Source: Nitrospira sp.
GTDB lineage: Bacteria; Nitrospirota; Nitrospiria; Nitrospirales; Nitrospiraceae
Direction: 5' to 3'
Assembly (NCBI GenBank): GCA_024330925.1
Contig: JANDJK010000010.1
Location: 1 to 51,285, forward strand
Length of the DNA: 51,285 nucleotides
Position numbers and translations under genes: made by a program. The notes beneath the pieces are model-generated. The model made no database searches, had not been told where the DNA came from, and was given only the letters and a program-made list of their open reading frames with translations. Positions 45,453 through 51,285 of the stretch are shown here, piece by piece (positions within the stretch are counted from its first letter, which is position 1; each line of letters starts with the position of its first letter).

Positions 45453-45609
45453 ATTGAAGCCTGAACCTTTTGCACAAGCATGTCAACGGTGGACCGGTGC
45501 CCCTCCATTCTCCTCATCTGTTCTCACGCAATGATGTTCCCTCTCTCGACAGATGATTTCATCCTATGTTAGCCTAACGCGCTTGTTCTCCTGTGGGGCT
45601 GATAAGGCC

Positions 45610-47028
45610 ATGTTCAAGAAAATTCTGGTCGCCAACCGTGGAGAAATCGCCATGCGCATCATCCGCGCTTGTCGGGAGCTCAACATCGCCACGGCTGCGA
45701 TCTACTCAGAAGCAGATTCAACAGGTATTTATGTCAAGAAGGCGGATGAGGCGTATCTCGTCGGCCCTGGCCCGGTCAAGGGCTTCTTAGACGGCCCACA
45801 AATCGTGGGTCTCGCCGTTCGCATTGGTGCCGACGCCATTCACCCTGGGTATGGGTTTCTCTCGGAAAACGCGGAGTTTGCAGGGCTCTGCCGAGATGCC
45901 GGTATTACTTTTATCGGTCCCTCCCCCTATGCCATCACCATGATGGGCAGTAAGGTCAAAGCGCGTGAGATCGCTCGGACTGTCGGGGTACCGATCGTCC
46001 CCGGTACAGACACAGCGATTACCGATGTGAAAGAGGCCATGGCCTTCGCAAGAGAGGTCGGCTATCCCCTCATGATCAAAGCCAGCGCTGGCGGAGGCGG
46101 TCGTGGCCTCCGCGTTGTTCGATCAGATGAGGAGCTCCGCGAAAACATCGAAGCCGCATCACGCGAAGCCCAAGCCTCTTTTGGGGATGGCAGTGTGTTC
46201 ATCGAAAAATACATTGAGCGCCCCCATCATATTGAGTTCCAGATCCTAGGCGATCGCTACGGGCACATCATCCATCTCGGCGAGCGAGACTGCTCAATCC
46301 AGCGTCGACATCAAAAGTTGATTGAGATCGCCCCGTCGTTAGTCTTAACGCCAGCGCTCCGCGAAGAGATGGGACATGCAGCGATTGCCATTGCACGAGC
46401 CGTGAACTATGACAATGCCGGCACCGTGGAATTTTTGCTCGATCAGCAGGGCCGCTATTACTTCATCGAGATGAATCCGCGATTGCAGGTGGAACACACC
46501 GTCACAGAGCAAATCACGGCCATCGACATTGTCCGCCACCAAATCACAATCGCGGCGGGCCATCCCTTGGACCTTCAGCAAAAAGACATCCTGCTCCAGG
46601 GGCATGCGATTCAATGCCGGATCAACGCGGAAGATCCCAAGAACAATTTCATGCCGTCCACGGGCACTATCACGGCATACCTTTCACCTGGAGGAATTGG
46701 AGTCCGAATTGATGGGGCCGTGTACAAGGATTACACCGTACAGCCCTATTACGATGCTCTTTTGGCCAAACTCACGGTACGAGGGCGCACCTGGGAAGAA
46801 GCCGTCAGCCGCATGCGCCGCTCGCTTGAAGAATATGTTCTGCGCGGAGTAAAAACGACCATCCCGTTCATGGAAGCCATTATGCAGGAGCCAGATTTCA
46901 TCGCTGGGCGGTTTGATACGTCGTATTTGGAAACCCACCCGGAACTGTTCTCGTACCATGAATATCAGCAACCGGAGGATTTAGTCCTGGCAATTTCCGC
47001 AGCCATTGCCGCTTACGAAGGGTTATAA
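45610..47028 (+). CDS. pycA: Pyruvate carboxylase subunit A / biotin carboxylase
   Basis: ATP-dependent carboxylation of biotin. 472 residues. FKKILVANRGEIAMRIIRACREL opens the biotin carboxylase N-domain; the ATP-grasp domain has KASAGGGGRGLRVV, the HHIEFQILGD segment, ERDCSIQRRHQK, and EMNPRLQVEHTVTE; the C-domain has GHAIQCRINAEDP. The ATG at 45610 is the family start; the frame is open 19 codons upstream. AccC is possible by sequence alone, but the next gene encodes a carboxyltransferase with a biotin domain, so the two-subunit pyruvate carboxylase is preferred. GTTAGCCTAAC at 45569 is a short palindrome of unknown meaning. Confidence 0.9.
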   Translation: MFKKILVANRGEIAMRIIRACRELNIATAAIYSEADSTGIYVKKADEAYLVGPGPVKGFLDGPQIVGLAVRIGADAIHPGYGFLSENAEFAGLCRDAGITFIGPSPYAITMMGSKVKAREIARTVGVPIVPGTDTAITDVKEAMAFAREVGYPLMIKASAGGGGRGLRVVRSDEELRENIEAASREAQASFGDGSVFIEKYIERPHHIEFQILGDRYGHIIHLGERDCSIQRRHQKLIEIAPSLVLTPALREEMGHAAIAIARAVNYDNAGTVEFLLDQQGRYYFIEMNPRLQVEHTVTEQITAIDIVRHQITIAAGHPLDLQQKDILLQGHAIQCRINAEDPKNNFMPSTGTITAYLSPGGIGVRIDGAVYKDYTVQPYYDALLAKLTVRGRTWEEAVSRMRRSLEEYVLRGVKTTIPFMEAIMQEPDFIAGRFDTSYLETHPELFSYHEYQQPEDLVLAISAAIAAYEGL

Positions 47029-47076
47029 ACCACCACGAGCAAGACTGCGTTCGCGAGCACTTCTCATTCACTCGTT

Positions 47077-49026
47077 ATGGCAACCATCCGCTCTTCCAAA
47101 AGAAAACAACCCGCATCTCCCCGATCAGTTGGCCCCAGCAGCCGACGACCAAAGGCCATTCCCTCACGCCCACAGGAATGGACCATTCGTCCTGCGCCAG
47201 GGAAGCGCCTGATGATTACGGAGGTCGCACTACGAGATGGTCATCAGTGTCTGTTGGCCACCCGTATGAGAACGGAGGACATGTTGCCGATCGCCCAGAA
47301 ACTTGACGCGGTGGGATTCTGGTCACTGGAAGTATGGGGCGGTGCCACATTCGATACCTGTCTGCGATATTTGAGGGAAGACCCCTGGGAACGGCTCCGC
47401 GCTTTGCGCGCGGCCATGCCCAACACCAAATTACAAATGTTGCTGCGTGGGCAAAACCTTGTCGGCTACCGGCATTATGCTGACGACGTCCTGGAGCGGT
47501 TCATTGAGCGGTCTGCAGCCAATGGAATCGACGTCTTTCGTATTTTCGATGCGCTGAACGACGTGCGCAATCTCGAGCGGGCCGTACGCGAGGTGCGAGC
47601 CTGCGGTAAACACGTCGAGGCCGCCATCAGCTACACCGTCAGCCCTGTCCACAGTATCGATCGGTTCGTCGAGCTGGCCAAACGGCTGGAGGACCTTGGC
47701 ACCGACACACTCTGCATCAAGGACATGGCCGGCCTCTTGACACCGTTTGATGCCTATCGCCTGGTCAGTCGCCTCAAAGCTTCCGTCTCGGTTCCTATCC
47801 ACTTGCATTCTCACGACACAGCCGGCATGGGCAGTATGTCGGCCTTGATGGCGGTGCTGGCCGGTGTCGATATTGTGGATACTGCCATTTCTCCCCTCTC
47901 TGGCGGCGCATCGCATCCCCCCACCGAGTCTATCGTCGCCGCCTTGCAACACACCCCCTACGATACCGGCCTTGATCTCACCGCTCTGCAGCCGATTGCA
48001 GATCATTTTCGTACAGTTCGTCGCAAGTATCGGCAGTTCGAGAGCGACTTTACCGGCGTGGATACAGCCATCCTCACCTCACAGATTCCTGGCGGCATGT
48101 TGTCGAACCTTGCCGCACAACTGGCCGAACAACAGGCACTGGAACAAATGAAAGAAGTGCTTGACGAGGTGCCGCGCGTGAGAAAGGAGATGGGCTATCC
48201 GCCCCTCGTCACGCCAGCCAGCCAGATTATCGGCACGCAGGCCACATTAAATGTGTTGACCGGCGAACGATACAAGGTAATCACGACCGAGACCAAGAAT
48301 TACTTCCTCGGCCTGTACGGGCGCCCGCCCGGTCCGCTTGACCCAGAGGTCATGGTGCGCGCTATTGGAGACGAAGAGCCAATCAAAACCAGACCGGCCG
48401 ACCGATTGGAACCGGAACTCAAAGCCATCAAACAAGAACTTCCAGATGCCTCTATCGAAGATCAACTCTCCTTCGCCCTCTTTCCAACCATCGCACGGGA
48501 ATTTTTCGAGGTGCGCAAGAAAGGTGACCTGACGCCTCCCCCGCTTGAAACGACTTCTCCCAAGGCCCCGGCCGTCGCCCACGAACTGCATCTAGCACCA
48601 GTCGAGTTCAACATCACGGTGCACGGTGAAACCTATCACATCAAGGTATCCGGTTCTGGCCGCAAGGTAGACGGCCGTAAACCCTATTACATCCGCATCA
48701 ACGATCGGTTGGAAGAAGTGTCGCTCGAACCGATCCAAGAAGTCTTCGCCGGAGTGCCGGAGACTCATGAAGCCGACAAAACCACCCAGGCAAAGCGACC
48801 GAGGCCATCACAACCCGGCGACGTGGCGCCGCCTATGCCGGGCCGGGTCGTCAAAATCCTGGTATCGGTCAATGACCGTGTCAAGGCTGGTGATTCGCTC
48901 TTGATCATCGAGGCCATGAAAATGGAAAGCCGCGTGCCAGCGCCTATGGATGGCACCGTTACAGCCATCTTGGCAGCAGAAGGAGAACACGTGAAACCGG
49001 ATGAAACTGTCATTCAATTGCAATAA
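47077..49026 (+). CDS. pycB: Pyruvate carboxylase subunit B (carboxyltransferase + biotin carrier)
   Basis: Transfers the carboxyl group from biotin to pyruvate, giving oxaloacetate to feed the TCA cycle. 649 residues. The carboxyltransferase TIM barrel has ITEVALRDGHQCLLATRM, FWSLEVWGGATFD, RGQNLVGYRHYADD, FRIFDALND, IKDMAGLL and HLHSHDTAGM; the C-terminal biotin domain has EAMKMES with biotinyl-Lys615. The first 45 residues (SSKRKQPASPRS...) are basic low complexity, and the usual family start corresponds to the ATG at 47212, which has a better ribosome site (AGGGAAG); both are possible. The close relatives are oxaloacetate decarboxylase alpha subunits; no sodium-pump subunits are nearby. 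Confidence 0.9.
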   Translation: MATIRSSKRKQPASPRSVGPSSRRPKAIPSRPQEWTIRPAPGKRLMITEVALRDGHQCLLATRMRTEDMLPIAQKLDAVGFWSLEVWGGATFDTCLRYLREDPWERLRALRAAMPNTKLQMLLRGQNLVGYRHYADDVLERFIERSAANGIDVFRIFDALNDVRNLERAVREVRACGKHVEAAISYTVSPVHSIDRFVELAKRLEDLGTDTLCIKDMAGLLTPFDAYRLVSRLKASVSVPIHLHSHDTAGMGSMSALMAVLAGVDIVDTAISPLSGGASHPPTESIVAALQHTPYDTGLDLTALQPIADHFRTVRRKYRQFESDFTGVDTAILTSQIPGGMLSNLAAQLAEQQALEQMKEVLDEVPRVRKEMGYPPLVTPASQIIGTQATLNVLTGERYKVITTETKNYFLGLYGRPPGPLDPEVMVRAIGDEEPIKTRPADRLEPELKAIKQELPDASIEDQLSFALFPTIAREFFEVRKKGDLTPPPLETTSPKAPAVAHELHLAPVEFNITVHGETYHIKVSGSGRKVDGRKPYYIRINDRLEEVSLEPIQEVFAGVPETHEADKTTQAKRPRPSQPGDVAPPMPGRVVKILVSVNDRVKAGDSLLIIEAMKMESRVPAPMDGTVTAILAAEGEHVKPDETVIQLQ

Positions 49027-49046
49027 GCCGTGGAAGGGACTGTTCT

Positions 49047-49988
49047 GTGGGAACGCCGCATCGTGGTCCGGCCCCATTCTGTCTAGGGCCCATTCTTGCC
49101 ATCGCTGCTTGCTCTTCTCCGCCGGCAATTCCCCCTCATTTTGAAGTCTTTGAACGTATTCCCATCCAGATTGTCACCGTTCAGGACTACCGTATCGCCT
49201 ATTTAGACAGAGGCATGGGTCATCCTCTCATTCTCTTACATGGCTTCAGCGGATCCATGTGGCAATGGGAACATCAGCAGCAGCCCCTGGCTCAACACTA
49301 TCGCGTCATTACACCAGACTTGCTCGGCTTTGGTCTTTCAGACAAGCCGGACATCGACTATCGACCGGACCAACTCGTGGACTTTTTGACCAACTTCATG
49401 GATGCGCTTGCAATCCCACAGGCGACATTGATTGGGAACTCCATGGGCGCCGGCCTGGCAATGGCTATGGCACTCGACCGTCCAGAACGAGTAGATAAGC
49501 TGGTGCTAATCGGTGGATTGCCGCCGAACATTCGCTTGAATGTCACCAGCCCCATTGTCAAACGGACTCTTGATACCCAGGCACCGTCATGGTTGCTCTC
49601 CCTCGGCAACCGACTCTTTGGCGGTTGGCTAGCCCAATCTGTGCTTCGTGAGTTAATTTACGACCACTCCTTGATCACTCCCGCCGTTCTTGAACGATCC
49701 ACCCGCCATCGACACAATCCCGGCTTGATCAAATCGATGCTCGCCGTAAAAGAATCGATTGGGCTGTGGGAGTCCAACTATGCGGTGCGCCTCCATACCA
49801 TACGGCATCCCACCCTCATCATCTGGGGAGAGGAAGACCAGGTCTTCCCCCTATCGGTTGGCGAAGAGCTTCATCGTCTTATCGCCGGCTCTCAGTTTGT
49901 CTCCGTCCCACTGGCAGGACATATCCCTCAATGGGAACGGCCAGACCTCGTCAACAACGTGCTCATTGCGTATATTGAGTCTTCGTAA
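49047..49988 (+). CDS. Alpha/beta hydrolase, probable lipoprotein
   Basis: 313 residues. The N-terminus (LGPILAIAAC, Cys22, then SSPP) has a lipobox-like sequence, so it may be a lipoprotein. The hydrolase core shows the oxyanion segment LLHGFSGSMWQWEHQ, nucleophile elbow GNSMGAG (Ser132), acid GEEDQV and catalytic His AGHIPQWERP. The family includes esterases, lipases and C-C hydrolases; substrate cannot be read. A GTG start at 49047 with GGAAGGG upstream is used. It lies 20 nt after pycB. Confidence 0.85.
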   Translation: MGTPHRGPAPFCLGPILAIAACSSPPAIPPHFEVFERIPIQIVTVQDYRIAYLDRGMGHPLILLHGFSGSMWQWEHQQQPLAQHYRVITPDLLGFGLSDKPDIDYRPDQLVDFLTNFMDALAIPQATLIGNSMGAGLAMAMALDRPERVDKLVLIGGLPPNIRLNVTSPIVKRTLDTQAPSWLLSLGNRLFGGWLAQSVLRELIYDHSLITPAVLERSTRHRHNPGLIKSMLAVKESIGLWESNYAVRLHTIRHPTLIIWGEEDQVFPLSVGEELHRLIAGSQFVSVPLAGHIPQWERPDLVNNVLIAYIESS

Positions 49989-50059
49989 TAAAAAGAAGGT
50001 TCCCAAGCCGGGTAGGAGTATGGCTCATCAACAGAAACGCCAACCGAAAGGAGCGGATC

Positions 50060-50725
50060 ATGAGGGGAAGAAGATACGTGATCGACGGTGCTGCAATGAG
50101 TCTTGTGTTCGCCATGGCTAGCTGCACCGGTTTAGGTATCTCGAGGGAGGCAGGCTTTACCTATAAGGACATCACCGTGGCCAGCGGCACCGCTCTGGCT
50201 GGAGAAGGCAACAAAGTCCTGTTGAAGGGCGAACCATTCATACTGTCTGGAACGGCCATCAAGGTAGGCGACATCTTGCGCGATGTCCAGTTGACTCAAA
50301 CCGACTTATCGTCAGTCACTATCACCCGTACCAAAGGAACAGGAAAAGTCCGCATTATCAGCATCGTGCCGTCACTTGATACACCGGTTTGCGAGCAGCA
50401 GACCCACTATCTCAGCGAAAAGAACAACGGCCTCGACAACATGATCGAGCTGATCACGGTGAGTATTGACACGCCGTTCGCTCAGAAACGCTTCGCACAA
50501 GAAGCCAAGATTAACAATGTCACGTTCCTGTCCGACTATCGTGGAGCCGAATTCGGCAAAGCGCACGGCCTCTTGGTAAAAGACCTTCATATATTGGCCA
50601 GAGCCGTCATGGTCGTGGACAAGGACAACACCATTCGTCACCTTCAAATCACACCGGAGCTCAAACAGCTGCCGGACCTGGACAAAGCGTTCCAGGTCGC
50701 ACGATCCTTGATTTCGGCCAGTTAA
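50060..50725 (+). CDS. tpx: Thiol peroxidase Tpx family, probable lipoprotein lacking the resolving Cys
   Basis: 221 residues. A lipoprotein-type signal (SLVFAMASC, Cys22) suggests export and anchoring, unlike cytosolic Tpx. The fold matches Tpx: VGDILRDVQLTQTDLS, the peroxidatic motif SLDTPVCEQQ (Cys111) and ITVSIDTPFAQKRFAQEAKINN. In E. coli Tpx the latter block carries the resolving Cys (RFCGAEG); here that position is Ala146, and no other Cys remains in the mature protein. It should therefore act as a 1-Cys enzyme needing an outside reductant. AAGGAG lies 7 nt before the ATG. A strong hairpin follows the gene. Confidence 0.88.
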   Translation: MRGRRYVIDGAAMSLVFAMASCTGLGISREAGFTYKDITVASGTALAGEGNKVLLKGEPFILSGTAIKVGDILRDVQLTQTDLSSVTITRTKGTGKVRIISIVPSLDTPVCEQQTHYLSEKNNGLDNMIELITVSIDTPFAQKRFAQEAKINNVTFLSDYRGAEFGKAHGLLVKDLHILARAVMVVDKDNTIRHLQITPELKQLPDLDKAFQVARSLISAS

Positions 50726-50726
50726 T

Positions 50727-50769
50727 CTGCACCTCCAGCTCAACTCACTTTGAGCCGGAGGTTGTGCAG
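50727..50769 (+). terminator. Hairpin between tpx and the transhydrogenase gene
   Basis: CTGCACCTCC...GCTCAA pairs with TTGAGC...GGAGGTTGTGCAG (outer arms 50727-50743 and 50750-50769, small bulges), giving a strong stem just after the tpx stop. No U-run follows, so it may be a weak terminator or an mRNA stabiliser. Confidence 0.55.
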
Positions 50770-50820
50770 ACCCTATCACGGTTCATTTTCCGTTACCGGA
50801 ACATCTGCGGGAGGGGGCCG

Positions 50821-51285
50821 ATGGCGCATTACGACATGTTGGTGATCGGAACAGGACCAGCCGGCCAAAAAGCCGCCATCCAGGCAGCTAAGCTCAACAA
50901 GAAGGTCGGCATCGTCGAACGAAAGAGAGTCGTAGGCGGTGTCTGCATCAATACCGGCACCATTCCCAGCAAAGCGCTGCGCGAAGCGGTGCTGTACTTG
51001 TCCGGATTTCGTCAGCGAACGATCTACGGCGCCTCGTATCGATTGAAAAAGACGATCACGGTCGAAGACCTGGCCTTCCGTGCCCACCACGTCATCAAAA
51101 ACGAAATTCTGGTGGTGCAGGATCAAATGGCCAGAAACGGCGTCGATCTGTTTTTCGGATCAGCGAGCTTCGTCGATCCGCATCGGCTGCGGATCGACTC
51201 CGATCGGGGTTTGTTCGAGCTGACGGCGGATTTTATCGTCATCGCAGTGGGTACGGAACCGACCAGACCCTCACACGTCCCGTTC
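50821..51285 (+). CDS. sthA: Soluble pyridine nucleotide transhydrogenase, SthA-like (partial)
   Basis: The first 155 codons of an FAD-dependent disulfide-reductase-family enzyme; the 3' end lies beyond the window. The FAD motif is VIGTGPAGQKAAIQAAKL. The redox loop reads VGGVCINTGTIPSKALRE: one Cys is kept and the second is Thr, as in SthA, and unlike dihydrolipoyl dehydrogenase (CxxxxC). SthA exchanges hydride between NADPH and NAD+. GGGAGGGGG directly precedes the ATG. Confidence 0.88.
   Translation, partial: MAHYDMLVIGTGPAGQKAAIQAAKLNKKVGIVERKRVVGGVCINTGTIPSKALREAVLYLSGFRQRTIYGASYRLKKTITVEDLAFRAHHVIKNEILVVQDQMARNGVDLFFGSASFVDPHRLRIDSDRGLFELTADFIVIAVGTEPTRPSHVPF

Follow-up and report, generated by a model that had tools for sequence, protein, structure and literature searches.

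The tpx Locus and Its Neighbourhood

The window (the whole stretch of 51,285 nucleotides of Nitrospira sp. DNA analysed here) contains, at 50060–50725, a gene for a thiol peroxidase (tpx) that opens with an ATG at 50060. Its features and those of its neighbours are as follows:

45553–47028, + strand, PycA/AccC-like biotin carboxylase (conserved cluster member)
47077–49026, + strand, PycB/OadA-like pyruvate carboxylase subunit B (conserved cluster member)
49047–49988, + strand, alpha/beta hydrolase with a lipoprotein-like N-terminus (conserved upstream neighbour)
50047–50053, + strand, AAAGGAG, ribosome-binding-like, 6 nt 5' of the ATG at 50060 (read from the sequence)
50060–50725, + strand, tpx, predicted exported 1-Cys thiol peroxidase of 221 residues (Redoxin and thiol peroxidase profiles; peroxidatic cysteine kept, Ala at the resolving position)
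50060–50125, + strand, lipoprotein-type signal, residues 1–22, with Cys22 as predicted lipidated residue (PS51257-type pattern; kept in orthologues)
50369–50392, + strand, PSLDTPVC, residues 104–111, PxxxTxxC motif with the peroxidatic Cys111 (homologue alignment)
50495–50497, + strand, codon of Ala146 at the Tpx resolving-cysteine position (alignment; helix 139–149 in the model)
50600–50602, + strand, codon of Arg181, the catalytic Arg (homologue alignment)
50764–51285, + strand, SthA-like FAD transhydrogenase, cut by the contig end (N-terminal MAHYD from about 50821)

The surroundings of tpx were compared at 58 loci, some of them cut by contig ends, and the conserved order is pycA-pycB-alpha/beta hydrolase-tpx-sthA-tenA, tenA being a presumptive label given to the downstream neighbour from its sequence. 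The arrangement pycA-pycB-alpha/beta hydrolase-tpx-sthA(-tenA), at 45553–51285 in the window, is conserved through the Nitrospiraceae and much of the order. Upstream, the hydrolase lies next to tpx at 51/58 loci (a total in which L116, at −607, joins the 50 that satisfy the counting rule), accompanied by pyruvate carboxylase subunits B (49/58) and A (46/58), while downstream the SthA transhydrogenase, present as full-length copies in relatives, is found at 40/58 loci and TenA at 45/58. None of these neighbours accompanies tpx at four loci of the class outside the order (L064, L065, L067, L068) and two within it (L050, L052). The hydrolase of the window shows a lipoprotein-like N-terminus (AIAAC), and it is one of the 32 among 45 cluster hydrolases that match a lipoprotein pattern when this is applied without its position rule.

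The adjacent transhydrogenase had initially been regarded as a possible hint at redox balancing. This clue was not supported: sthA follows tpx at 40 of the 58 loci, but tenA comes immediately after tpx at several loci from another family of the order, suggesting that SthA is dispensable to the gene arrangement and arguing against it as a partner of the peroxidase.

Family, Fold and Active Site

The tpx product matches the Pfam profiles Redoxin and AhpC-TSA and scores 148.7 bits against the NCBIfam thiol peroxidase profile NF001808, above its curated cut-off of 123. Tpx chains ranked first upon its comparison by sequence with solved structures, and the top 23 rows of a Foldseek search with its AlphaFold2 model were Tpx or Tpx-like structures. 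The model, of moderate confidence (mean pLDDT of 68.8, with residues 1–30 below 50), is consistent with a Tpx-like thioredoxin-superfamily fold. Profile score, active-site motif and fold thus place the protein in the Tpx subfamily, as stated in the initial annotation. A link to selenocysteine proteins through NF045827 (Prx-SUH) was discarded, given a score of 113 bits versus a cut-off of 298 and a Cys as peroxidatic residue. The gene is the only tpx found in the source genome, where the next-best match in the protein search is a weak hit of 27 percent; the other six Redoxin matches there correspond, on reading their sequences by eye, to three TlpA/CcmG-like, two BCP-/peroxiredoxin-like and one other thioredoxin-fold protein.

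The peroxidatic site is intact (P104, T108, C111 and R181), in agreement with the Tpx motif PS(I/L/V)DTx(V/T/I)C (here PSLDTPVC) and the catalytic Arg. In known Tpx structures the resolving cysteine sits in helix alpha-3, according to the excerpt available of a study that also gives the Tpx motif (PMC5302317). This helix lacks it in the window protein, the resolving Cys95 of E. coli Tpx aligning to Ala146 within QKRFAQEAK. Only two cysteines occur in the whole protein, C22 and C111, confirming the earlier reading of a lone peroxidatic cysteine and of Ala at the resolving position, and the predicted mature chain would be that of a 1-Cys peroxiredoxin. The sequence thereby rules out the 2-Cys mechanism of Tpx, with its disulfide inside one chain. 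A resolving cysteine supplied by a dimer partner, also contemplated at the outset, finds no residue to provide it apart from the peroxidatic cysteine itself, that is, a disulfide between two such residues. The P, T, C and R positions are kept in all 104 distinct homologues aligned, indicating that the peroxidatic half is under selection and ruling out a decayed gene or pseudogene.

Export Signal and Start Codon

The N-terminus is built like that of a bacterial lipoprotein, with a charged n-region followed by a hydrophobic segment and a lipobox Cys. The lipobox of the window protein (FAMASC) passes the lipoprotein rule applied, a pattern of the PROSITE PS51257 type, even though it is weak, with Met at −3. 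Close orthologues carry clear LAGC/VAGC lipoboxes, and it is mainly for this reason that the protein is predicted to be exported. This rule is passed by 72 of 81 orthologues, the window included, and the other nine show a Cys after a hydrophobic stretch without satisfying its strict form. Both the signal and the Cys at the lipidation position are conserved throughout the clade of lipoprotein-type orthologues, in line with the export originally proposed.

This conservation also led to the rejection of a cytosolic start after residue 30, one of the two circumstances named at the outset as refuting the observation. An internal functional start, for example at the GTG of residue 40, which in the window is preceded by AAGGA, would leave the protein in the cytosol. 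However, a start-like codon near this residue exists in only 37/81 orthologues, and across the class the N-terminal signal is kept together with a Cys at a fixed site, making the upstream ATG much the likelier start and the internal one highly improbable.

Distribution of Exported Forms and Phylogeny

Homologues were collected from family matches and more distant ones as 129 loci, 128 of which gave a protein (104 distinct); L002, a weak match of the source genome, had no tblastn hit and stands outside the counts. Whole-genome searches covered the Nitrospirota, other phyla being represented by one Phycisphaeraceae locus and by plasmids. Within the family, 173/175 genomes contain some tpx match, strong in about 157 (table read by eye) and weak, partial or absent in the remaining ones, among them the near-complete G161 and G173.

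All 81 distinct lipoprotein-type orthologues, from the class Nitrospiria, combine Ala or Ser at the resolving position with a single non-lipid Cys, and of the 72 that pass the lipoprotein rule, 68 have Ala there and the remaining 4 have Ser. The same combination is displayed by the four sequences (L075, L079, L081, L082) of a second exported paralogue found in some Nitrospirales genomes, which has the motif LNTPVCDEQTH, no resolving Cys and, by eye, an ordinary signal peptide. The survey of exported 1-Cys Tpx proposed in the initial annotation thus shows the form to be lineage-wide in the class (81/81 plus 4/4). In all 85 exported Nitrospirota forms a single Cys lies between 60 residues before the peroxidatic one and the C-terminal end, none occupies the resolving position, and a His is found five residues after the peroxidatic Cys (CP+5). 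Cytosolic comparators were the better-scoring matches of a longer list, hence a non-random sample, and 18 of these 19 (18 from Nitrospirota, 1 from Phycisphaeraceae) keep the resolving Cys, CP+5 being Arg in 17, Lys in one and Met in one.

The lone cytosolic exception, the Nitrospirota protein L076, has Leu at the resolving position; two other Cys are seen upstream of its peroxidatic one. On Vibrio plasmids (L147:2456-3573, L148:2456-3570) a tpx of cytosolic type stands in tandem with the gene of an exported redoxin, both products being without resolving Cys, the cytosolic-type one having Val there. A strict rule by which exported forms lack the residue and cytosolic ones keep it is therefore broken by L076 and by the cytosolic-type proteins of both plasmids.

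A maximum-likelihood tree was built from 70 rows (41 of the 81 lipoprotein-type, 4/4 other exported, 19/19 cytosolic and 6 plasmid proteins). Its 47 exported rows, including two Vibrio plasmid proteins, fall on one side with support of 100/100, and this split stays at an SH-aLRT of 100 upon removal of the resolving-cysteine column and of six divergent rows. The divergent Vibrio, L067/L068 and paralogue rows join the exported side on long branches, a kind of placement that the program flagged as possibly spurious. Within this sample, export and loss of the resolving cysteine map to the same single branch and have the appearance of one event. They provide one independent contrast in the tree, too few for a statistical link between both traits, and cause and effect are inseparable.

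Candidate Electron Donors

A different, periplasmic reductant, as advanced in the initial annotation, is plausible for a protein with this predicted location. It is the location outside the cytosol, rather than loss of the resolving cysteine, that would force a new donor: 1-Cys BCP proteins are reduced by thioredoxin or via GSH/Grx, as stated in the available part of PMC8945050, and loss of this residue alone does not impose one. No thiol reductase was seen, by annotation, among the recurrent or clustered neighbours of the compared tpx loci, and a donor encoded next door was accordingly dropped.

Elsewhere in the source genome, three exported TlpA/CcmG-like thioredoxin-like proteins with CxxC are encoded (L130, L131, L135), L135 in an apparent cytochrome c maturation region, and one of the three (C69) directly precedes CcdA. 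A TlpA query matched in 41/41 family genomes, CcdA was found in 56/60, and both lie side by side in G000, G056, G067, G121, G007 and G048 (coordinates compared by eye). DsbC_N, for its part, appeared in 3/41 family genomes, and neither family of the gamma-glutamylcysteine ligase GshA was found in the source genome, which is 90.6 percent complete. DsbG-type or glutathione routes thus look less likely, and the exported TlpA/ResA-CcdA pair is the best candidate reductant, favoured by elimination only. Both members of this pair also have a part in the maturation of cytochrome c. Moreover, at least two near-complete genomes that lack a strong Tpx match encode CcdA (G161 and G173, the latter also with TlpA). 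Given this other role and such occurrences, the presence of TlpA and CcdA does not in itself point to Tpx.

Proposed Mechanism and Alternatives

The protein is probably a lipid-anchored 1-Cys peroxidase facing the periplasm and recycled by TlpA/ResA-CcdA. Following Sec export, this Tpx-family peroxiredoxin would receive a lipid on Cys22 that keeps it on the periplasmic side, probably anchored in the outer membrane given the rarity of Asp at +2 (1/81 lipoprotein-type orthologues). Cys111 would then reduce H2O2 or an organic peroxide, becoming a sulfenic acid. With no closure available inside the chain, an external thiol would have to attack this sulfenic acid directly, the putative donor being TlpA/ResA, a thioredoxin-like protein of the periplasm to which CcdA would relay electrons from thioredoxin in the cytosol.

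Other fates of the oxidized Cys111 deserve consideration. It might form an intermolecular Cys111-Cys111' disulfide to be reduced by a periplasmic thioredoxin-like protein, as suggested by the absence of any other cysteine in the window protein and by PDB entry 3hvx, an E. coli Tpx with its resolving Cys changed to Ser whose title, the part of the entry on which this likeness stands, mentions an intermolecular disulfide. Nonetheless, membrane anchoring would limit encounters of dimers, and the two peroxidatic cysteines lie far apart in A-interface Tpx dimers, making this route unlikely. The oxidizing equivalent might instead be handed on, with the protein acting as a peroxide relay or sensor whose sulfenic acid oxidizes a partner in the envelope, giving it a disulfide of regulatory or structural use, scavenging being secondary. 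The lone peroxidatic Cys, its strictly conserved surroundings and the His at CP+5 (85/85 exported versus 0/19 cytosolic forms) suggest a specific partner surface, and the adjacent lipoprotein-like hydrolase, conserved at 51/58 loci, is in keeping with it. Conservation near the peroxidatic Cys is, however, also expected of a plain peroxidase, and the proposal, with its hypothetical partner and a merely conjectural redox role for the hydrolase, is one that we regard as rather improbable. Still less probable is reduction of Cys111 by periplasmic low-molecular-weight thiols or persulfides: use of GSH/Grx by other 1-Cys peroxiredoxins (BCP), described in the accessible text of PMC8945050, speaks for it, while the missing gamma-glutamylcysteine ligase families speak against it, although absence from a genome of this completeness is no proof.

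The reading that we prefer, recycling of an envelope peroxidase by TlpA/ResA-CcdA, can be tentatively extended. Export, loss of the resolving cysteine and, in Nitrospirota, gain of the CP+5 His may possibly reflect one event that gave rise to an ancient, dedicated envelope branch of Tpx, a class-wide periplasmic peroxide enzyme in Nitrospiria that would either receive electrons via CcdA-TlpA or be used for oxidation of a specific envelope partner. If true, it would be one of the main defences of nitrite-oxidising Nitrospira, N. defluvii included, against peroxide outside the cytoplasm.

Relation to Known Systems

Tpx is generally regarded as a 2-Cys enzyme, and an exported 1-Cys clade conserved in main nitrite oxidisers offers a natural test of both Tpx function without resolving Cys and extracytosolic electron supply. 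The clade also bears on peroxide defence in Nitrospira, N. defluvii being reported in PMC8115632 and PMC3578206 to be without catalase and SOD and N. marina being credited in the former with catalases, SODs and various peroxiredoxins. Tpx has been labelled bacterial periplasmic thiol peroxidase in the text seen of PMC5719442. In literature searches of partial coverage, none of the titles and abstracts seen dealt with an exported 1-Cys Tpx, weak evidence that the lineage-wide clade is apparently undescribed.

The window protein shares with E. coli Tpx (PDB 1qxh, 3hvs) family score, fold, the PS(I/L/V)DTx(V/T/I)C motif and the catalytic Arg, but differs in lacking the alpha-3 resolving Cys and in having a signal peptide, a predicted lipid anchor and the CP+5 His. 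The E. coli C95S mutant (3hvx) is likewise a Tpx without resolving Cys, though engineered and cytosolic-type, whereas here the loss occurs in nature and is shared across a class. Catalysis by the peroxidatic Cys alone with an external resolving thiol is also the property of 1-Cys peroxiredoxins (Prx6, e.g., AnPrx6; 1-Cys BCP/PrxQ; AhpE), which, however, belong to other subfamilies, and no description of them as exported lipoproteins was found in the excerpts available. A cell envelope peroxiredoxin linked to ScsB, attributed to Cho et al. 2012, reportedly receives its electrons from a DsbD-like carrier in the membrane; its likeness to the window protein is one of description, not of compared sequences, and its carrier is ScsB rather than CcdA. 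Finally, the exported redoxin of the Vibrio plasmids (L147, L148) has a signal peptide and no resolving Cys (Ile instead), and groups with the exported clade, but it lacks the Pro of PxxxTxxC, the lipidation Cys and the CP+5 His, and lies on a long branch and in another gene context.
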